Source: Aliiroseovarius sp. S1339
GTDB taxonomy: Bacteria > Pseudomonadota > Alphaproteobacteria > Rhodobacterales > Rhodobacteraceae
Assembly (NCBI RefSeq): GCF_023195695.1
Contig: NZ_JALPQG010000007.1
Location: 1-64,000 of the forward strand
Reading direction: 5' to 3'
DNA: 64,000 bases
Shown: positions 7,841 to 16,498 of the stretch, piece by piece
Layout: every line of letters starts with the position of its first letter
Position numbering within the stretch: the first letter of the stretch is position 1
Made by a program: the position numbers and the translations under genes
The notes under the pieces: model-generated
Database searches by the model: none
What the model was told of the DNA's origin: nothing
The model's input: only the letters and a program-made list of their open reading frames with translations

Positions 7841-9338
7841 GCTGCTGAACGCGCTGACACCGCCGGACACCGTACCACTTGTATCCGTGGCCGATCTGCG
7901 TGATGTGTCGGATGCGAAAGAGGAAGCGCTCAACGCTTGGGACGCGCGGCTTGAGAGTATCTTTGCTGAGTATCACTCCCATCCGCAACGGTTGCGCCCG
8001 GTGCGCGCGGTCATGGAAGAACGCCTGCTGCGTGCTTTCGCAGGTTTGTTAAACCAACTCCGGTAGGAAGACCTTGGGATTGAGCAATACATCTGGCGCT
8101 CGCAAGATGATGCGAAGGTACGCAACAGCCACGCTTCATATGATGACCGTGTATTTCGCTGGGACACGCCACCGGAAGGCGGGCACCCGGGCGAGGCGCA
8201 CAACTGTCGGTGTCATGCGGAACCCATCGCGCCGGGAGTGCAAAGCAACGTCGTGCTCGCTGATTTTGCACCCACCGCAGATAGCTTTCCGAACGGCAAT
8301 GGTACTGTACGACGCTTGAGCAATGGATTGCTCGCGCGATCACCCGCAGGGTTGGCGGCCTATGCTGCCCTTGAAGCCAGTAACCAACTTCAAGCTTTCA
8401 CCCGGGCAGCAAACCGACAGCAAGTGCGCGATGCGGCAATCATCATGGGCGCTGACCTAGGTACAGTGGAGGGCATCCTCGCAGCACAAGCGTATGCTGT
8501 GGCGAGGGAACTTGCCGAAAACGGCTTCTTGTCTGATGTGCCTGAACGGGGTAACCGAGCAAAGATTATTGCGGAAGCCATTGGCCTGTATGAAATGTAC
8601 CAGCCGGGTCTGTTCACGCTGCCAAACGAGGAGGCGGCAGCAGCGGTGGAACTCGCCCGCCAGCTAGCCGCTGAAGCACTGGCCACGATGGAAGCGAGTC
8701 GGCTCATCCCGGTGGACGGCGAACTGGCGCAGGGCTGGGTTGAGGTGTTCCCTGAACTTACGGAAGATGAGCGCCGCTTGGAGCTACTGCCGGGCTTCAC
8801 ACCGGAACGGATCGAGCAGTGGCTTGAAACGTATCCGATTGAAGATTTAGGTCTGCCTAACCACACCGGATCGCCGATCCCTGATGATCCGACCGACAGC
8901 ATCATTTCGACTCCGATCCCAGAAGAAACCGGGCCGAATATCGTTGCAGTCCAACCAGGTGAGCCGACTCCGATCAATCCAAGCGATGACGAAGCCACTC
9001 AACGCGGGCATCGCCGAGAAAATGAATCCGCGCAGATTCTGGGGCAGAATGGCTTTGACATCATACAGAACCCGGTGATCGACGGACCAAAACGTCCCGA
9101 TTATTTAATCAACGGAGAGGTTTACGATCACTACGCACCGTCAAATGACCGCGCCCGAAACATTTGGTCCGAAGTCAAAGGCAAAATCGAAAGGGGGCAG
9201 ACTGAAAACACTGTCATTGGTCTTTATGATAGCAATGTAGATGAAGACGCTCTTCGACAACAGTTTGAGAACTGGCCAATTGAGGGGCTTGGCGATGTGA
9301 TTATCATTCGCTCTGACGGAACCATTGGGAGGCTGTGA
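7839..9338 (+). pseudogene. Phage MuF-type head protein with CdiA_C toxin domain, interrupted by an amber codon
   Basis: One frame runs from the IS3 junction to 9338 with a single internal stop, TAG at 8064-8066. The region spanning it carries the phage Mu gpF/SPP1 gp7-type signature: YIWRSQDDAKVRNSHASYDD, then FRWDTPPEGGHPGE and CRCHAEPI. After a linker with Pro/Thr-rich repeats (about residues 210-250 counted from the GTG at 8238), residues 260-366 match the CdiA_C nuclease domain: RRENESAQILGQNGF, NPVIDGPKRPDYLINGE, YAPSNDRARNIWSEVK and WPIEGLGDVIIIRSDG. This is the layout of phage-encoded MuF polymorphic toxins. The toxin part could still be expressed from the GTG at 8238, but the whole protein looks dead. 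Confidence 0.82.
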
Positions 9339-9646
9339 TGGCTATCGAGTATCATATTTACACCGATCTGAACATCGAAACGTTGACGAGCCGAACCGAA
9401 GCTGCCGCCAAAGGTACGCAAGATCTCTGGGAAGGTTGGTGGGTTAACGATGACCTGGGTCCGTTCCACGAGGAGATCATGGAGGATTACGGTGACCAAA
9501 AAGGGTACAAAACGAGAATGACATCGCGCCATTTCAAGGATCGCAGCGTCGAGGCGCGCGCTAGATTAATTGAGTTTTTTGACTCCCTGCCAGGAAGGAA
9601 ACTCATTTTGAACGGCGACAGCTTTGTCGATTACCGCAAGAGCTGA
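9338..9646 (+). CDS. Probable immunity protein for the CdiA_C toxin
   Basis: A 102-residue acidic soluble protein without signal peptide, starting at the ATG that overlaps the toxin stop (TGATG). Such tight coupling directly after a polymorphic-toxin C-terminus is the normal place for the cognate immunity gene. It contains DLWEGWWVNDDLGPFHEEIM and ends in DSLPGRKLILNGDSFVDYRK. I cannot assign it to a named immunity family, so the call rests on position and size. The frame is intact, which would be needed if the toxin domain is still made. Confidence 0.65.
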   Translation: MAIEYHIYTDLNIETLTSRTEAAAKGTQDLWEGWWVNDDLGPFHEEIMEDYGDQKGYKTRMTSRHFKDRSVEARARLIEFFDSLPGRKLILNGDSFVDYRKS

Positions 9647-10016: not shown

Positions 10017-10796
10017 ATGCTCTTTGAAGATATCGTCAACCTGAACCTGCATCCGGTCACCCAACCTGACTACAGCGCTGAGTGTCGCGCAAAGCTTGAT
10101 AGCGAGGGGGTATTGGTGCTTGAGGATTTCATTAGTCCCGCCGCTCTGACCCTGATGCATGCTGAAGGCACCGCTGCACAGGATAAGGCCTATTTTTGCG
10201 CCCAAAGTCACTCGGTCTATCTCACACCTGATAATCCGGCGTATCCAGACGATCATCCTGCGAACCGCAAAGTTCTGTCGTCCAAAGGATGCATTTGCGA
10301 CGATGTGATCGGCGCGATGTCCCCTTTGCGGGTCCTCTATGATGAGCCGACCTTCCGGGATTTCGTGGCCGAGACCACCGGCCAGACTGAGTTGCACCCT
10401 TACGCTGATCCGCTTTCATCGATCAACGTCCACTACGCCAACCGCGATCAAGAACTGGGGTGGCACTTTGACAATTCGAGCTTTGCAATCACCTTGCTCA
10501 TCCAGAAACCGGATGCTGGCAGCCGGTTTGAGTACGTTAAGGGGTTGAGGGACGCGGACGCTGGCGAAATGAACTATGACGGTGTGGATGAGCTGTTTCG
10601 TGGAGCCATTCAGCCGCAGGTTCTGTCCATGGAGCCGGGAACTTTGGTTTTATTTCGTGGACGAAACTCAATCCATCGCGTCACTCCCAACGAGAGCGAC
10701 CGGACACGAATGCTTGCGGTTTTGGCCTACAACGCTGAACCTGGCGTGACACTGTCCGAAAGCGCTAGAATGACGTTCTATGGCCGTTTGGATTAG
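10017..10796 (+). CDS. 2-oxoglutarate/Fe(II)-dependent oxygenase, HalD/BesD-like
   Basis: A 259-residue non-heme iron oxygenase. The iron facial triad is visible: His150 and Asp152 (LGWHFDNSSF) and His220 (GRNSIHRVTP), with Arg229 or Arg231 as the likely 2-oxoglutarate ligand. GTLVLFRGRNSIHRVTP and the overall layout resemble the HalD/BesD group, some of which are amino-acid halogenases; those have Gly or Ala instead of the aspartate, so this one should hydroxylate rather than halogenate. The substrate is unknown, with a free amino acid plausible. It stands alone between phage remnants and a dead recombinase, probably as island cargo. Confidence 0.8.
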   Translation: MLFEDIVNLNLHPVTQPDYSAECRAKLDSEGVLVLEDFISPAALTLMHAEGTAAQDKAYFCAQSHSVYLTPDNPAYPDDHPANRKVLSSKGCICDDVIGAMSPLRVLYDEPTFRDFVAETTGQTELHPYADPLSSINVHYANRDQELGWHFDNSSFAITLLIQKPDAGSRFEYVKGLRDADAGEMNYDGVDELFRGAIQPQVLSMEPGTLVLFRGRNSIHRVTPNESDRTRMLAVLAYNAEPGVTLSESARMTFYGRLD

Positions 10797-11033: not shown

Positions 11034-11688
11034 TTAGATTGCAATAGCCTCCGCAATCGCTAGGGCGTCCTCCAACTCGACACCAAGATACCGAACTGTG
11101 CTGTCCATCATTGTGTGACCCAGCAATAGCTGAACCGCCCGTAGGTTGCCTGTCTTCCTGTAGATCTGCGTGACCTTGGTGCGCCGCATCGAATGTGTTC
11201 CATATGCGCTCGCCTCCAGTCCAATAGATGTGATCCAGTCGCGCACGATCCGCGCGTACTGTCGCGTCGAAATGTGTAGGCGCTCATGGAACCGACCCGG
11301 CCAAAGGTACTCTGAGCCGATCATGAGCTCATCCTCCATCCACTTCTCGACAGAGGCACGCGTGCCTTCGGAGATCTCGAAGCGCACGGGTTTCTGTGTC
11401 TTACTCTGCAAGACAGATGCCCGTTCCTTGATCTGATCCGACGCCATCACATCGACGGCTTTCATCTTCACCAGGTCACAGCCTCAGAGCCTGCTGTCGA
11501 TCACCATGTTGAACAGTGCGAGGTCGCGATGGTTCTCGGCCAATTCAAGTCGCACCCGGATTGCCCATACATGCTTCGGTTTCAGCGGTCGCTTCTGGCC
11601 GACGATGCGTCCCTCGTTCCAAGCGGGGCGAAGTGCGCGAATGGCAGGTAGGTTTGGTGTTTGAATAACTGATCCTCTAATCTGCCAT
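11034..11688 (-). pseudogene. Tyrosine recombinase, degraded
   Basis: The C-terminal catalytic part is open: THSMRRTKVTQIYRKTGNLR contains the HxxR motif, LLGHTMMDSTVRYLGVE the second His and the nucleophilic Tyr. Upstream the same frame reads PAWNEGRIVGQKRPLKPKHV to FNMVIDSRL, then a TGA at 11484-11486 (probably a former Arg) before GCDLVKMK. The likely ATG at 11688, with GGGAGG before it, is in another frame, so the start is also damaged. It would have catalysed site-specific integration, but with at least two lesions it is non-functional. Confidence 0.85.
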
Positions 11689-12183: not shown

Positions 12184-12564
12184 ATGACCAAGCAAAATGA
12201 CAAAGCACTTTCCCGCCGCAAGGCATTCACTGCCATCGGTGGCCTGGCTGTGGCCGCCTATGTGGCACCCACATTGACCACACTTTCTGCGGCACATGCC
12301 GCCAGTTCGTCTTCATCCGCCAGCCCAGCTTCGGCGGCGAGCCCGGCCTCCAAAACAAGCCCGGCCTCGAAAGTAAGCCGTGCCTCGGCCACCAGCCGAC
12401 CTTCGAGCTCGTCAAGCTCCTCTTCACCAAGCTCAACGTCGTCTCCGACATCCCCAAGCGGCCCAAGCAGTCCCAGCAAGTCGATGACGCAAAGCGAGTG
12501 CAGAGACTCCGGCGGCACAGTCGTTACGCGCGATGATGGAGTTTCGGTTTGTAGCCGAAGCTAA
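12184..12564 (+). CDS. Tat-leader Ser/Pro/Ala-rich protein (paralogue 1)
   Basis: A 126-residue protein. Residues 10-39 form a twin-arginine-type leader (SRRKAFTAIGG, then a hydrophobic stretch ending SAAHA). Residues 40-100 are low complexity, built from repeats such as SPAS, SPASK and runs of Ser, with no fixed structure expected. A short C-terminal tail has two cysteines (Cys106 and Cys123). The leader closely resembles that of the protein at 13923-14492 (AAYVAPTLTTLS against GAYIAPSLAGLS), so the two are paralogues. It precedes the kinase gene by 120 bp. I propose it as an exported substrate of that kinase; this is inference. Confidence 0.8.
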   Translation: MTKQNDKALSRRKAFTAIGGLAVAAYVAPTLTTLSAAHAASSSSSASPASAASPASKTSPASKVSRASATSRPSSSSSSSSPSSTSSPTSPSGPSSPSKSMTQSECRDSGGTVVTRDDGVSVCSRS

Positions 12565-12684
12565 GTCGGAAATATCTCATTCGAAACACCCGGTCTGCTT
12601 GCAATTCATTTGCTGGCAGACCGGACTGCTTTAGGGCACGTTGGAAATTGAGTAGGATGAGCGGAACCAGCTCAGGATTGAAAC

Positions 12685-13926
12685 GTGGCAAATACGCGAT
12701 ATCTGAATTTTGAAGGTTTGAATCACTCCGTCGCGCTTGAAAACGCGGCGCCTTTAGAGACGATGGTGTCGGAGGTATTGTCCGCGTGGCCTCATCAGAT
12801 TTCCGCGACACAGCCCCAAAACCCACCATTTGTCACAATCAGACCAGCGGATGACGGTCGGTGGTCGTTGGTGACCGAAGACGCGCCATCCGACGTTCGG
12901 ATTTGGGACTCAGTCAATACCGTCTGTGATCTCGTGGCGGAAACGGCTTGGGAACGTCTGCGGTCCGAGCCTGAATTGCTTTGCCTACACGCCGCGGCTG
13001 TCAATTTCGATGGACGGTTGGTTGTCTTCCCCAATGCGCGGCGCGCGGGCAAGAGCACGCTTGCCATTGCGCTGGCGCGGCTTGGTCGGCAGCTTTACAC
13101 GGACGACTTCTTGCCCGTGCGAATTGATGCAAGCAATCAGACTTGTCTTGGTATTGCGAATGGGGCACCGCCACGTATTCGTCTTCCGGTTCCGCAAGGC
13201 TTCAGCGATGCTTTTCACGCGTGGGTGGGTCAGGATCGTGGCCCGTCAAATCGACAGTACAAGTATCTTTTGGACGCTCAGATAGCGCCACATGGAGAAA
13301 CATTGCCGCTTGGCGCAATGGTGGTGCTTGATCGGCAGGATGATCCGGTCGAACCAGCCCTCGCCCCCATGGCGCGCGAGGATGCGCTGGAAAGCCTGAT
13401 CTCTCAGAACTTTGCCCGCACACGACATGCTGGCGCGATCCTGAAATCGATCGACGTGATCACGCGGCACCTTCCGATCTATCGGTTGAGCTATCACAGT
13501 GGTGAGGCTGCAGCAGAATACCTATCGAACCATGCCGATTTGAAATCGCTTCCCGCGGCTCAGTTTGCAGAACTTGCACAGGATGATCGCCAAGCGCCGT
13601 TGAACCAGATTGGCCAATCGACCCCCGAATTCGCGGCGGTGCGGCAGTATGTTCAGGCAACGAACGTGACCGAGACGCAGGCGGGCAACGACAGTTTTCT
13701 TGCAGATGGCACAGGTTTGGCCATTTTTCGATTGAACCCGGTCTCGACTGCGATCTGGCGGTTGCTGGAAGAGCCGACCGATCTGGACGAAGTCGTGTCC
13801 CTTCTGGCAGCAGCCTTTCCCGATGTCCCCGCAGATCAGATCACCACTGATTGCGAGCAGTTGATGCGTGGTCTGGCCGAGGCGCGTCTGATCCTGCCGG
13901 TGGCTTCAAAGGTTGCGGCGCAATGA
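12685..13926 (+). CDS. HprK-related kinase fused to a PqqD-type domain
   Basis: A 413-residue protein from a GTG with AGGA upstream. Residues about 95-290 resemble HPr kinase/phosphorylase: LHAAAV (His102), the P-loop RRAGKSTLAIAL (Lys123, Ser124) and YTDDFLPV (Asp140/Asp141). The P-loop lacks the usual glycine at its start (PNARRAGKST). Residues about 335-408 resemble PqqD, the small domain that binds leader peptides of modified peptides (AIFRLNPVSTAIWRLLEEP, then AAFPDVPADQI). HprK-like/PqqD pairs are known from the HPr-rel-A type of system; here both are in one chain. The stop overlaps the start of the second Ser-rich protein (ATGA). Phosphorylation of a Ser-rich partner guided by its leader is my inference. 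Confidence 0.8.
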   Translation: MANTRYLNFEGLNHSVALENAAPLETMVSEVLSAWPHQISATQPQNPPFVTIRPADDGRWSLVTEDAPSDVRIWDSVNTVCDLVAETAWERLRSEPELLCLHAAAVNFDGRLVVFPNARRAGKSTLAIALARLGRQLYTDDFLPVRIDASNQTCLGIANGAPPRIRLPVPQGFSDAFHAWVGQDRGPSNRQYKYLLDAQIAPHGETLPLGAMVVLDRQDDPVEPALAPMAREDALESLISQNFARTRHAGAILKSIDVITRHLPIYRLSYHSGEAAAEYLSNHADLKSLPAAQFAELAQDDRQAPLNQIGQSTPEFAAVRQYVQATNVTETQAGNDSFLADGTGLAIFRLNPVSTAIWRLLEEPTDLDEVVSLLAAAFPDVPADQITTDCEQLMRGLAEARLILPVASKVAAQ

Positions 13927-14492
13927 AACGCAAAAATCGCATATCACGCCGCGAGGCTTTGAAGCGTCTGGGCTTGGGCGCGGCCGGCGCCTATATCGCC
14001 CCTAGCTTAGCTGGATTGAGCATGGCCAGAGCCGCATCAAGTTCATCGGCACCGTCGCCTGCAAGCAGGGCAACACCCCCAAGTCCGGCGTCACCCGCTT
14101 CCCGCCCTAGCCCAGTGAGCAGAGCGAGCGCCCCTTCAGATCCAAGCCGACCAGGCGGTCCAAATGGTCCAAATGGCAACGGTGGGTCGCAGCCGAGTGG
14201 CCCTAGCGGACCCGGCAAATGCAAACGATCTGCGATTTCAGGGGACGCCCAGATATCGCGCCGGGATTACCAACGTGCGCAACGCGCCATTTCGCGTGGT
14301 GACGCGCGACCGTTGCGCGAAGTGCTAAGCAACGTTCGCGCCAAACACCCCGGGAAAGTTTTACATGTCGGGTTTTCCGAGAACGGGACCAGACCGACCT
14401 TCAACGTGTTGATTGTTGGGTCGTCTGGCGCCGTGATTTCGGTGACCGTTGACGCCAAATCCGGCCGAGTCACAAGCATGCGGAAGTGCTGA
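13923..14492 (+). CDS. Tat-leader Ser/Pro-rich protein with PepSY-like C-terminus (paralogue 2)
   Basis: A 189-residue protein. Residues 7-37 form a twin-arginine leader (ISRREALKRLG). Residues 38-98 are a low-complexity segment of SPAS, SPVS, GPNG and PSGP repeats. Residues about 110-189 form a folded domain resembling PepSY: ISRGDARPLREVLSNVRAKH, a beta strand NVLIVGSSGAVISV, and DAKSGRVTSM at the end. PepSY domains are often periplasmic and linked to sensor kinases. It starts inside the kinase stop and ends directly before the response-regulator ATG, so it bridges the kinase and the two-component system. The export leader and repeat region match the protein at 12184-12564. Confidence 0.8.
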   Translation: MKRKNRISRREALKRLGLGAAGAYIAPSLAGLSMARAASSSSAPSPASRATPPSPASPASRPSPVSRASAPSDPSRPGGPNGPNGNGGSQPSGPSGPGKCKRSAISGDAQISRRDYQRAQRAISRGDARPLREVLSNVRAKHPGKVLHVGFSENGTRPTFNVLIVGSSGAVISVTVDAKSGRVTSMRKC

Positions 14493-15158
14493 ATGCGTAT
14501 TCTGATCGTCGAAGATGAACAAAAGATTGCGGAACTGATTGCCGATGTTCTGAAAGGCGAAGGCCTTGTCCCCGAGATCGCCCGGGACGGGGAAGAAGGA
14601 TGGTTTCTCGGCAGCACCGAAAGCTATGCTGCGGCGATCCTTGATATTGGTCTGCCCAAACGGGATGGGCTTTCGGTTCTGCGTAGCTGGCGTGATGAAG
14701 GCCAGGATATGCCGGTTATTTTGCTGACCGCTCGGGCAAACTGGAACGAACGGGTCGAAGGCATTGATGCAGGCGCGGACGACTATCTGGGAAAGCCCTT
14801 TCAGATGGAAGAACTCATCGCACGCCTTCGCGCGTTGCTGCGGCGTTCAAGCGGGCAGAAAACAACGACATTGGAAGCCGGACCGCTGCGTATTGACCTC
14901 AGACAGATGCGCGTGTCCATCGACGGGCGCCCGTTGAAGGTCACACCTTTGGAGTACCGGCTTCTCAATTACCTCATGCACAATCGTGGTCAGGTGGTTG
15001 CGCAAGAGGAGCTTGCCGAAAACATCTACTTCCGAGATCAGGAGCCCGACAGCAATGCAATTGAAGTCCTGGTCGGGCGCTTGCGCCGCAAGATCGGTGG
15101 GGATGTGATCGAAACGCGACGCGGGTTTGGCTATATGATAGCTGAAGATCCGCAATGA
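14493..15158 (+). CDS. OmpR/PhoP-family response regulator
   Basis: A 221-residue two-domain regulator. The receiver domain has the acidic pair in VEDEQK, the phosphoacceptor Asp51 (AAILDIGLPKRDG) and DDYLGKPF with the conserved Lys. Residues about 125-220 are a winged-helix DNA-binding domain (TPLEYRLLNYLMHNRGQVV, then VLVGRLRRKIG and TRRGFGYMI). It starts immediately after the PepSY-protein stop and ends inside the start of the sensor kinase gene (ATGA). It should control transcription in response to that kinase; the target genes are unknown and may include this operon. Confidence 0.95.
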   Translation: MRILIVEDEQKIAELIADVLKGEGLVPEIARDGEEGWFLGSTESYAAAILDIGLPKRDGLSVLRSWRDEGQDMPVILLTARANWNERVEGIDAGADDYLGKPFQMEELIARLRALLRRSSGQKTTTLEAGPLRIDLRQMRVSIDGRPLKVTPLEYRLLNYLMHNRGQVVAQEELAENIYFRDQEPDSNAIEVLVGRLRRKIGGDVIETRRGFGYMIAEDPQ

Positions 15159-16498
15159 GGATGTCGCTAAGCCTGCGTCTGTTGCTGGCGGCTGCCATCA
15201 CGACCACACTGGCGCTGGTCGCGACGGTTATCGTGTTCAACTTCTTGTTCCGGCTGTATTTTGAAGACCGGGCGCGCGATGAGCTGGAGACTTACCTCCT
15301 ACTTTTGACCGGCAACATTGGCGTAAGCGCTGTCGGTGAAGTTGAAGTCACGCCCATATCGGACCCTCGGTTCAATCAGGCCTTGTCTGGCTATTACTGG
15401 CAAATCCAAGTTGATGACAAAGATCCCGTTCTGTCGCCTTCGTTCTGGGCGGCGCCTTTGGCGTTGGATCGCCCGGATGCGCCGGGGGTCATCTCGTTTG
15501 CCAACGTCATCACAGATGCAGGTGGGGCGGTCGCCGTCGCGAGTTGGGTGATCACGATCGGAGAGGGCGCCACCCAGCGAGAGGTCTTTCTGGCGATTGC
15601 CATTGACCGCGAAGACCTGGATCTGTCGGTTTCAGGATTTCTGACCAACTCTGTTATTTGGCTGGCCATATTGGGCCTGTTTCTGTTCGCGGCGGGTTGG
15701 GTTCAGGTCAAACTTGGGCTGAACCCACTGAAAAAAATTCGTTCAGAAATTGGCGATGTCAGCAAATCGCCCAAGGTGCGGTTATCATCGGATTATCCGT
15801 CCGAGGTTTTGCCGCTTGTTGAAGAAGTGAACCAACTTCTGGATGCAAATGCAGAGGCACTTGAACGGGCCCGCTCACGCGCCGGAAATCTGGCGCATGG
15901 TTTGAAAACCCCGCTGACGATCATGCACGGAGTCGAACGCAAGTTGCGCCGTGGCGGGAACGATGCGCTTGCCGACGAATTGATGTCGGAAATCACCAGC
16001 ATTCAACACACGGTCGAGCGTGAACTGGCGCAGAGCCGCGACAGCCATCAGAGACGGCGGCGCTGTGCTATTCACCCGATTGCCACCCGTCTGCATCGCG
16101 CCCTGAGCCGCCAACCCGGGGCCGAGCACATTCAATGGGATATCGAAGTGCCTGAGACCTTGTATGCACCCTTTGATGAGTTTGATTTGACTGAACTGAT
16201 GGGCAACTTGCTTGATAACGCGATGAAATGGTCGGAAAGTCTTATCTGCGTGCGGGCCGGGCAGGATGGCTCGCACGCTTTCCTGTCCGTCGATGACGAC
16301 GGCTCCGGCATTCCGGACGCTCAGATATCTTCCGTTCTGAAACGTGGCGGTAGACTCGACGCAAAGCAACCGGGGGCGGGTCTGGGTTTGACCATTGTAA
16401 ACGATATGGCCCAAGCGCACGGCTGCGTTCTGTCGCTCCAACGCTCATCACTAGGGGGGCTGAGCGCGCGCATAACGTGGTCGGTGAGCCGCGCGTAA
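15155..16498 (+). CDS. Membrane sensor histidine kinase
   Basis: A 447-residue kinase. Membrane segments lie at about 10-32 and 165-187 and enclose a periplasmic sensor of about 130 residues; a HAMP-like linker follows. His248 in NLAHGLKTPL is the phosphorylation site. ATP-binding boxes are NLLDNAMKW, DDDGSGIPD and GAGLGLTIV. The layout resembles PhoQ-type kinases. It overlaps the response-regulator gene by 4 nt, so they form a pair. With an exported PepSY protein in the same operon, the sensor may read the state of that protein; this is inference. A second ATG two codons in is an alternative start. Confidence 0.93.
   Translation: MRMSLSLRLLLAAAITTTLALVATVIVFNFLFRLYFEDRARDELETYLLLLTGNIGVSAVGEVEVTPISDPRFNQALSGYYWQIQVDDKDPVLSPSFWAAPLALDRPDAPGVISFANVITDAGGAVAVASWVITIGEGATQREVFLAIAIDREDLDLSVSGFLTNSVIWLAILGLFLFAAGWVQVKLGLNPLKKIRSEIGDVSKSPKVRLSSDYPSEVLPLVEEVNQLLDANAEALERARSRAGNLAHGLKTPLTIMHGVERKLRRGGNDALADELMSEITSIQHTVERELAQSRDSHQRRRRCAIHPIATRLHRALSRQPGAEHIQWDIEVPETLYAPFDEFDLTELMGNLLDNAMKWSESLICVRAGQDGSHAFLSVDDDGSGIPDAQISSVLKRGGRLDAKQPGAGLGLTIVNDMAQAHGCVLSLQRSSLGGLSARITWSVSRA

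Follow-up and report, generated by a model that had tools for sequence, protein, structure and literature searches.

Within a 64,000-nucleotide stretch of Aliiroseovarius sp. S1339 DNA (the window; contig NZ_JALPQG010000007.1, positions 1 to 64,000), five genes read in the same direction encode a Ser-repeat protein with a twin-arginine translocation (Tat) signal, an HprK-like kinase fused to a PqqD domain, a second Tat-signal protein with a PepSY domain, an OmpR-type regulator and a PhoQ-like sensor kinase. We propose, with a probability of roughly 0.7, that these genes belong to a leader-guided system resembling those of ribosomally synthesized and post-translationally modified peptides (RiPPs), in which a RiPP recognition element (RRE) directs the kinase to phosphorylate Ser tracts on Tat cargo before export. 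The evidence consists of gene linkage across genomes, a composite leader, a conserved RRE groove, conserved catalytic-type residues and selection for Ser with a period of three. The features of the operon are:

12184..12564, forward strand: small Tat-leader Ser-repeat protein of 126 residues, the proposed main substrate (leader hidden Markov model (HMM) E 7.8e-16, for a protein that was itself among the seeds; Ser and Thr make up 51% of the core)
12184..12300, forward strand: leader of the small protein, a Tat signal with the twin Arg at 12214-12219 and its end at AHA; the cleavage point is predicted from the A-x-A pattern
12259..12276, forward strand: YVAPTL, the proposed RRE recognition motif YxxPxL in the hydrophobic (h) region of the Tat signal (consensus from the text of PMC13381572)
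12301..12561, forward strand: Ser-repeat core with a C-terminal C-x3-GG-x11-C tail (Ser codons: 18 TCN, 15 AGY)
12685..13926, forward strand: HprK-like kinase fused to a PqqD/RRE domain, 413 residues (Pfam and NCBIfam scans, PDB profile, AlphaFold/Foldseek)
12988..12990, forward strand: His102, invariant in all 47 fused homologues; putative first member of the His-Lys-Asp-Asp set described in the text of PMC9266682
13030..13059, forward strand: P-loop PNARRAGKST including the invariant Lys123 (alignment of 47 fused homologues)
13102..13107, forward strand: Asp140-Asp141, invariant in 47 of 47 fused homologues
13720..13893, forward strand: PqqD/RRE domain as delimited by Pfam; N351, L374, F378 and D389 belong to its groove (Pfam and alignment)
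13923..14492, forward strand: second Tat-leader protein, 189 residues, with leader, Ser/Pro stretch and PepSY domain (translation, Pfam, leader search)
13992..14009, forward strand: YIAPSL, the proposed RRE motif of the second leader (motif YxxPxL)
14208..14489, forward strand: C-terminal part of the second cargo with the PepSY domain (Pfam PF03413, E 1.1e-5)
14493..15158, forward strand: OmpR-family response regulator (library scans; it adjoins the PepSY cargo at every one of the 10 loci where this cargo shares the kinase strand)
15155..16498, forward strand: PhoQ-like sensor histidine kinase of the same operon (library scans)

A first-pass annotation of this DNA had described a kinase-PqqD fusion in a single chain between two Tat-leader proteins, and this arrangement was confirmed. 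Its coordinates stand as well, with the start of the second Tat-leader gene now set at 13923, where an ATGA overlaps the kinase stop, and with an operon that runs on into the regulator and histidine kinase genes. The flanking proteins had been called paralogous. They do have a leader and a Ser-rich stretch in common; the second, however, is a PepSY-domain protein. In the 3.5 Mb genome the kinase fusion is the only PqqD match. The closest named loci, three found by a scan of contigs for short peptides, are 81-97% identical over the kinase.

Homologues were searched in 295 genomes of the family, 292 of the order, 385 of the class and 398 of the phylum. We read the loci of 47 genomes with a fused kinase (22 from the family, 16 from the order, 4 from the class and 5 new ones from the phylum search). 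The first-pass annotation had suggested such a search with a listing of neighbours, and had named in advance what would speak against its interpretation: kinase homologues commonly without a Tat-signal or Ser-rich neighbour. That pattern was not seen: in all 47 we found a same-strand leader open reading frame (ORF) directly upstream of the kinase. Some kinase ORFs were called too far upstream, which results in negative leader-kinase distances, and at L141 the nearest leader copy reached E 5.5e-3 only, the next one 1.7e-7. The class does not include four of the 47, those of family f201; our guess is that these genomes are gammaproteobacterial.

When the kinase and leader searches of the 295 family genomes were compared, the strong matches to each fell in the same 24 (Fisher P=9e-36), and no kinase-bearing genome lacked a leader. 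The leader search matched 30 genomes at E 0.001, 24 strongly (2.1e-8 or better) and 6 weakly (8.7e-5 to 8.3e-4). Of the strong group, 22 genomes carry the fused kinase, G123 has it in two frames and in G196 a contig end cuts the kinase and leaves its start. The remaining 38 kinase matches of the family search are short or weak and are probably other HprK-like or PqqD proteins; G230 has a weak kinase-PqqD match and no leader.

Such linkage would also be seen if the Ser tracts were inherited low-complexity linkers and the gene pairing one conserved operon, with no enzyme-substrate relation. A kinase tree with 64 rows divides with full support into 57 (every fused one, 47 in number, plus 10 unfused) and 7 unfused ones, as common descent of one operon would have it, and many cores are Gly/Ser- or Pro-rich. 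However, leader proteins are also encoded on other contigs, which within the 295 genomes of the family was seen solely where a kinase is present (G026, G206), the leader is found on unrelated cargo (PepSY, S8 peptidase), and both leader motif and RRE groove are kept. We give this explanation very little chance. The leader proteins on other contigs are an S8 subtilase with YxxP (L221, 3654-5036) and an SSSGG-repeat protein with YxxT (L222, 3980-4429); both are possible substrates in trans.

All 72 collected leaders, from 55 loci, contain YxxP, and the second residue after it is Leu in 39, Met in 12, Phe in 11, Val in 7 and Ile in 3. In a 42-row alignment R3, R4, Y18, P21, A29 and A31 are invariant, so the twin Arg and the A-x-A are kept throughout. 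With twin Arg, hydrophobic stretch and A-x-A all present, the leaders have the make-up of Tat signals, and export is predicted from them. The Tat model TIGR01409 (cut-off 16.7 bits) matched the second protein of the window with 17.2 bits in the genome search and 13.8 in the protein scan, and the first protein in neither. The motif sets the leaders apart: in a control set of 17 further Tat signals from this genome, none had [YW]xxP within 40 residues of the twin Arg. The TIGR01409 matches L173 (an own substrate) and L177 (judged no real signal) were excluded from this set. The collection involved some circularity, in that its regular expression and the first leader HMM favoured Y or T before xxP; T was permitted and never seen. 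In addition, many of the upstream genes were inspected directly. The two leaders of the window, previously described as near-identical, share 17 of 33 residues (53% over 38 columns), which makes that description an overstatement.

According to the text of PMC13381572, lasso-peptide RREs recognise [Y/W]xxPx[L/V/I/A/F/Y], and the leaders of the linear polyphosphorylated peptides (LPPs) of Bacillota have YxxPxV. YVAPTL and YIAPSL both agree with the YxxPx[V/L] of LPPs; the remainder of the LPP consensus (YxxPxVLxHQ...) is missing. One short stretch thus appears to serve both as Tat h-region and in RRE recognition.

The groove of the PqqD domain is conserved and matches this motif. In the LppB-LppA structure, as described in the text of PMC13381572, the leader Tyr is held by V35, C39, I56, Y60, V63, V67 and D70; D70 hydrogen-bonds the Tyr and N33 fixes the kink at the Pro. 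In our 47-row mapping D389 aligns with D70 and is Asp in 46 of 47 fused homologues, while N351 aligns with N33 (41 Asn, 6 Asp); L374 and F378 take the places of I56 and Y60. The suggestion of the first-pass annotation that the PqqD domain binds the leader and the kinase phosphorylates Ser is supported at the level of sequence, and it gains a new basis from the motif shared by all leaders together with this groove.

The PqqD domain itself (residues 346-403; Pfam PF05402, E 2.3e-13, 50.7 bits against a cut-off of 23.4) is the sole Pfam match of the protein at curated strength. Pfam HprK did not match the window kinase up to E 1, so the protein falls outside the HprK sequence family and its identity as a canonical HprK was rejected. 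The best NCBIfam relative of the kinase half is TIGR04352 (HprK-related kinase A), which gave 38.1 bits over a 51-residue stretch, below its curated threshold of 200, and was matched by 22 of 23 homologues at E 0.001. A 23-sequence profile searched against the PDB retrieved lasso and LPP RREs (5v1u, 2e-7; 9x8z, 3.8e-6) and the HPr(Ser) kinase 3tqf (7.3e-5). The AlphaFold model has a predicted local distance difference test score of 92.3. Its top Foldseek match was again 3tqf, with a significant E-value (3.2e-6) but low template-modelling scores of 0.24 by query length and 0.57 by target length, and phosphoenolpyruvate (PEP) carboxykinases followed close behind.

Across the 47 fused homologues H102, G122, K123, S124, D140, D141, G160, R164, R166, P168, Y192 and W358 are invariant. 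From their conservation His102, Lys123, Asp140 and Asp141 would correspond to the His-Lys-Asp-Asp set that lasso peptide kinases require according to the text of PMC9266682, an assignment made with no lasso kinase sequence in the alignment. The P-loop had been singled out as odd, which was an overstatement, since PNARRAGKST is a trait of the subfamily: the first position of GxxxxGKS is Gly in 15 of 47 homologues and another residue in the other 32, Asn in 17 of these, and GKS is kept in all. With GKS and the catalytic-type residues intact throughout, a dead P-loop was rejected.

The HprK-like domain might bind a nucleotide and transfer another group, for example a nucleotidyl group, or serve solely as an ATP-gated chaperone, keeping hold of the Tat leader for as long as the cargo is not ready. 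That PEP carboxykinases match the fold at E-values similar to that of 3tqf, and that the first Gly is so often missing, would agree with this; the presence of the His-Lys-Asp-Asp set in every fused homologue argues against it, and we consider it improbable. Phosphorylation, like leader binding, is the activity to which homology and conservation point.

The proposed substrate cores vary in make-up and keep Ser. Among 57 small cores we found SAASAAS, SEPSEP, RPSRPS and SGGSGG patterns as well as KSNKSG (L108) and YSRP repeats (f201). Ser is present in all of them and makes up at least 10% of residues in 54. When the cores were pooled (with L036 partly masked), Ser/Thr occurred at +3 from Ser/Thr with a frequency of 0.615, compared with 0.320 for shuffled cores (z=25.7), and the signal recurred at 6, 9 and 12. 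Both Ser codon classes were used (635 TCN, 461 AGY): 53 of 58 proteins with at least 6 core Ser contain both, and the class switches in 243 of 616 Ser pairs at i,i+3. Since TCN and AGY are not interconvertible by one base change, Ser is kept as an amino acid; the cores are under selection for Ser at a three-residue spacing. The mixed codon classes led us to reject slippage of the DNA as the only origin of the repeats, and chance low-complexity ORFs were rejected on the same grounds and because of the leader linkage.

Selection of this kind bears on how many Ser are modified. According to the text of PMC13381572, LppK, which is the closest enzyme to have been studied, phosphorylates S3 alone and generates forms with up to four phosphates. 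Several phosphates may thus sit on a single Ser, and multi-site modification is not implied by homology. The present kinase could likewise modify one Ser near the mature N-terminus, perhaps with several phosphates, and the Ser-triplet tract could be a flexible spacer; a Ser or Thr lies within five residues after the A-x-A in 67 of the 71 leaders with a recognisable A-x-A. The period-3 signal and the mixed Ser codons point instead to many Ser being selected amid variable flanking residues, and we regard modification of a single Ser as unlikely.

The leader is not restricted to small proteins. It also precedes PepSY domains at 10 loci, three of them close kin. PF03413 was found in all 9 PepSY cargo domains scanned of these 10, the interrupted L041 being left out, and the same response regulator and sensor kinase follow downstream on the same strand at all 10. 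The PepSY cargo probably feeds the adjacent two-component system. At L041 (8246-10935) a transposase-like ORF splits the PepSY cargo gene, and regulator and sensor genes then follow. At L103 homologues of PepSY protein, response regulator and sensor lie on the opposite strand and adjoin the kinase downstream.

S8 subtilases form another cargo. On a Shinella plasmid a leader-bearing subtilase and a small leader protein are followed by a 'PqqD family protein'. The same kind of cassette is found on a plasmid of Paracoccus marcusii, with a small gene that is unannotated and looks frame-broken. In both (L253, L254) a divergent sigma-factor gene and another hypothetical gene precede the S8-leader-kinase cassette. 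We compared close S8 homologues, namely the 14 best of 49 matches plus 7 order loci, with L103, L231 and L232 left out because of short N-termini. The stretch after the signal was Ser/Gly in 5 of 6 proteins with a YxxP leader and poly-Asp in 11 of 12 without one (P=0.004); L106, whose start is uncertain, was counted as leaderless and not Asp-rich. This is suggestive of Asp standing in for phospho-Ser in S8 proteins. The subtilases of L224, L225, L227-L230, L233-L236 and L107 have 10 to 30 Asp in the 30 residues directly after the signal peptide. L247, one of 16 lower-ranked S8 loci, has neither leader nor Asp run.

To identify further recurrent neighbours, we clustered proteins of at least 80 residues within 5 kb of the kinase at 41 of the 47 fused loci and named the clusters by eye (L035, close kin of the window, was left out). 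Leader proteins including S8 cargo recurred at 40 loci, regulator-like proteins at 11, sensor-like proteins at 10 and an anti-sigma-factor-looking gene at 9. An ATP-binding cassette transporter ATPase family occurred at 5 loci in mixed positions and strands, and several clusters look like shadow ORFs. Inspection by eye at the 41 loci revealed no cluster of glycosyltransferases, nucleoside triphosphate (NTP) transferases or cyclases; rare or small genes could escape it.

Unfused kinases define how far the proposal extends. We read 17 such loci, 16 from the 36 unfused genomes of the class search plus G445. A leader protein was present at 12, at L108 weakly and with Phe for Tyr, and a PqqD match lay within the fetched stretch at 13; in G602, G710 and G799 the listed match lies about 27-30 kb away. 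In the kinase tree the 7-row unfused group comprises all five leaderless loci together with L153 and L158, which have a leader. Fused rows do not form one clade: there are three label changes, and L141 groups with unfused rows at low support.

A number of observations weigh against phosphorylation of leader-guided Tat cargo. Five unfused loci (L154-L157, L159) are without any leader, and 20 further unfused genomes stand outside the count; the proposal therefore covers the fused kinases and some of their relatives. The weak HprK-like relatives L057-L061 had no leader match in their 15-kb stretches, and L109-L111 none at E 0.001. The system is patchy, with no kinase match in the same-genus genomes G297 and G455 and a short weak one in G400 (order search). 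As for the motif, the 12 leaders with Met after YxxPx fall outside the published RRE-motif set, two leader-like proteins deviate (FxxP in L108, YxxT in the in-trans L222), and the first leader HMM held two spurious seed rows (L048_10400, L051_7620), later dropped. The pocket-dividing F74 of LppB is mostly Leu here (28 of 47). Among the small cores, 3 of 57 are poor in Ser+Thr (L150 5%, L153 6%, L142 12%), and 28 of 57 have at least 10% Gly, like plain linkers. The S8 protein of L099 has a YxxP leader and is nevertheless Asp-rich, and the confinement of LppK to one Ser belongs on this side too. At L109 (5399-6846) a kinase relative lies beside an SRPSRPS-repeat protein whose twin-Arg leader lacks YxxP, with no PqqD match in the 13-kb stretch; this single case is compatible with our proposal.

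Taken together, we envisage that the C-terminal PqqD/RRE domain would bind YxxPx[L] in the Tat h-region of both neighbouring proteins, as lasso and LPP RREs do. Bound in this way, the cargo would have its Ser tract kept at the active site of the HprK-like domain (His102, Lys123, Asp140, Asp141), where many Ser would be phosphorylated with ATP in the cytoplasm. After release of the leader, Tat would export the modified protein and signal peptidase would cut at the A-x-A. The product would be an exported polyanionic tether bearing a small Cys-tail peptide or a PepSY domain. The number of phosphosites and a role in signalling are what we infer from these considerations.

If the RRE binds the leader as LppB does, in the form of an extended strand, it should be in competition with recognition by Tat, and the enzyme may therefore also gate export in the manner of Tat-signal chaperones. 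We tentatively extend the proposal, at somewhat less than even odds: the bound kinase-RRE would hide the composite signal, phosphorylate the Ser tract and then free the cargo to Tat; phosphorylation would be a general polyanionic tag for diverse exported proteins (Cys-tail peptides, PepSY sensors, subtilases), and poly-Asp its unmodified substitute. If true, leader-guided phosphorylation would be export quality control and not natural-product tailoring. The main proposal by itself would extend RRE-guided modification from natural-product clusters to ordinary protein export, with Tat targeting and RRE binding joined in one peptide. It would predict a class of exported phosphoserine-rich bacterial proteins, and there would be a handle on what the adjacent PepSY two-component modules sense.

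We also scanned the surroundings of the operon with Pfam (12 proteins between 8.2 and 20.8 kb of the window). A protein at 8238-9646 ends in a CdiA_C contact-dependent inhibition domain (E 4.4e-17) and is followed, at the position of an immunity gene, by a small ORF with no Pfam match. A 2-oxoglutarate-Fe(II) oxygenase related to the halogenase HalD (10017-10796, E 5e-13) lies about 1.4 kb upstream of the operon, and a C-terminal phage-integrase fragment (11034-11471, reverse strand, E 4.1e-13) is close to it.

Cytoplasmic proteins that bind a Tat signal before the cargo is mature exist in the chaperones TorD, DmsD and NapD. These have other folds and serve cofactor insertion, whereas the present system combines an RRE with a kinase. 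In paeninodin-type lasso peptides (PadeK, ThcoK) a His-Lys-Asp-Asp kinase also acts on a linear precursor, according to the text of PMC9266682; the substrate here differs from those described there in having a Tat signal and no single C-terminal Ser target. No lasso macrolactam synthetase (C) or B2 peptidase was found among the 12 window proteins scanned, and with no cyclase among the scanned neighbours a lasso cluster was rejected. We found no description of a Tat-leader system with HprK and RRE in the open-access literature, and the main text of PMC13381572 never mentions proteobacteria, Pseudomonadota or twin-arginine.

The closest known kind is the LPP family of Bacillota (LppA/LppB/LppK), published in Nat Commun in May 2026 (PMC13381572). 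The prior art named by the first-pass annotation, C-terminal Ser phosphorylation of lasso peptides, was incomplete, since LPPs are linear, leader-guided HprK/RRE phosphopeptides. As far as the text of that paper describes them, LPPs share with the present system an HprK-like kinase with a PqqD-type RRE, the YxxPx[V/L] leader, a variable core and the lack of a macrolactam cyclase. LPPs have a discrete RRE, an SpI-like peptidase, an NTP transferase, an MsbA-like exporter and one modified Ser. An SpI-like leader peptidase, NTP transferase or MsbA-like transporter was not found among the 12 window proteins scanned, nor such a cluster by eye at the 41 fused loci. Here, in contrast, the RRE is fused to the kinase, the leader is a Tat signal, the cores have Ser-triplet tracts, the cargo includes PepSY proteins and subtilases, and the hosts are Pseudomonadota. 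Tat leaders, fusion and protein cargo make the present system a new variant of this family.

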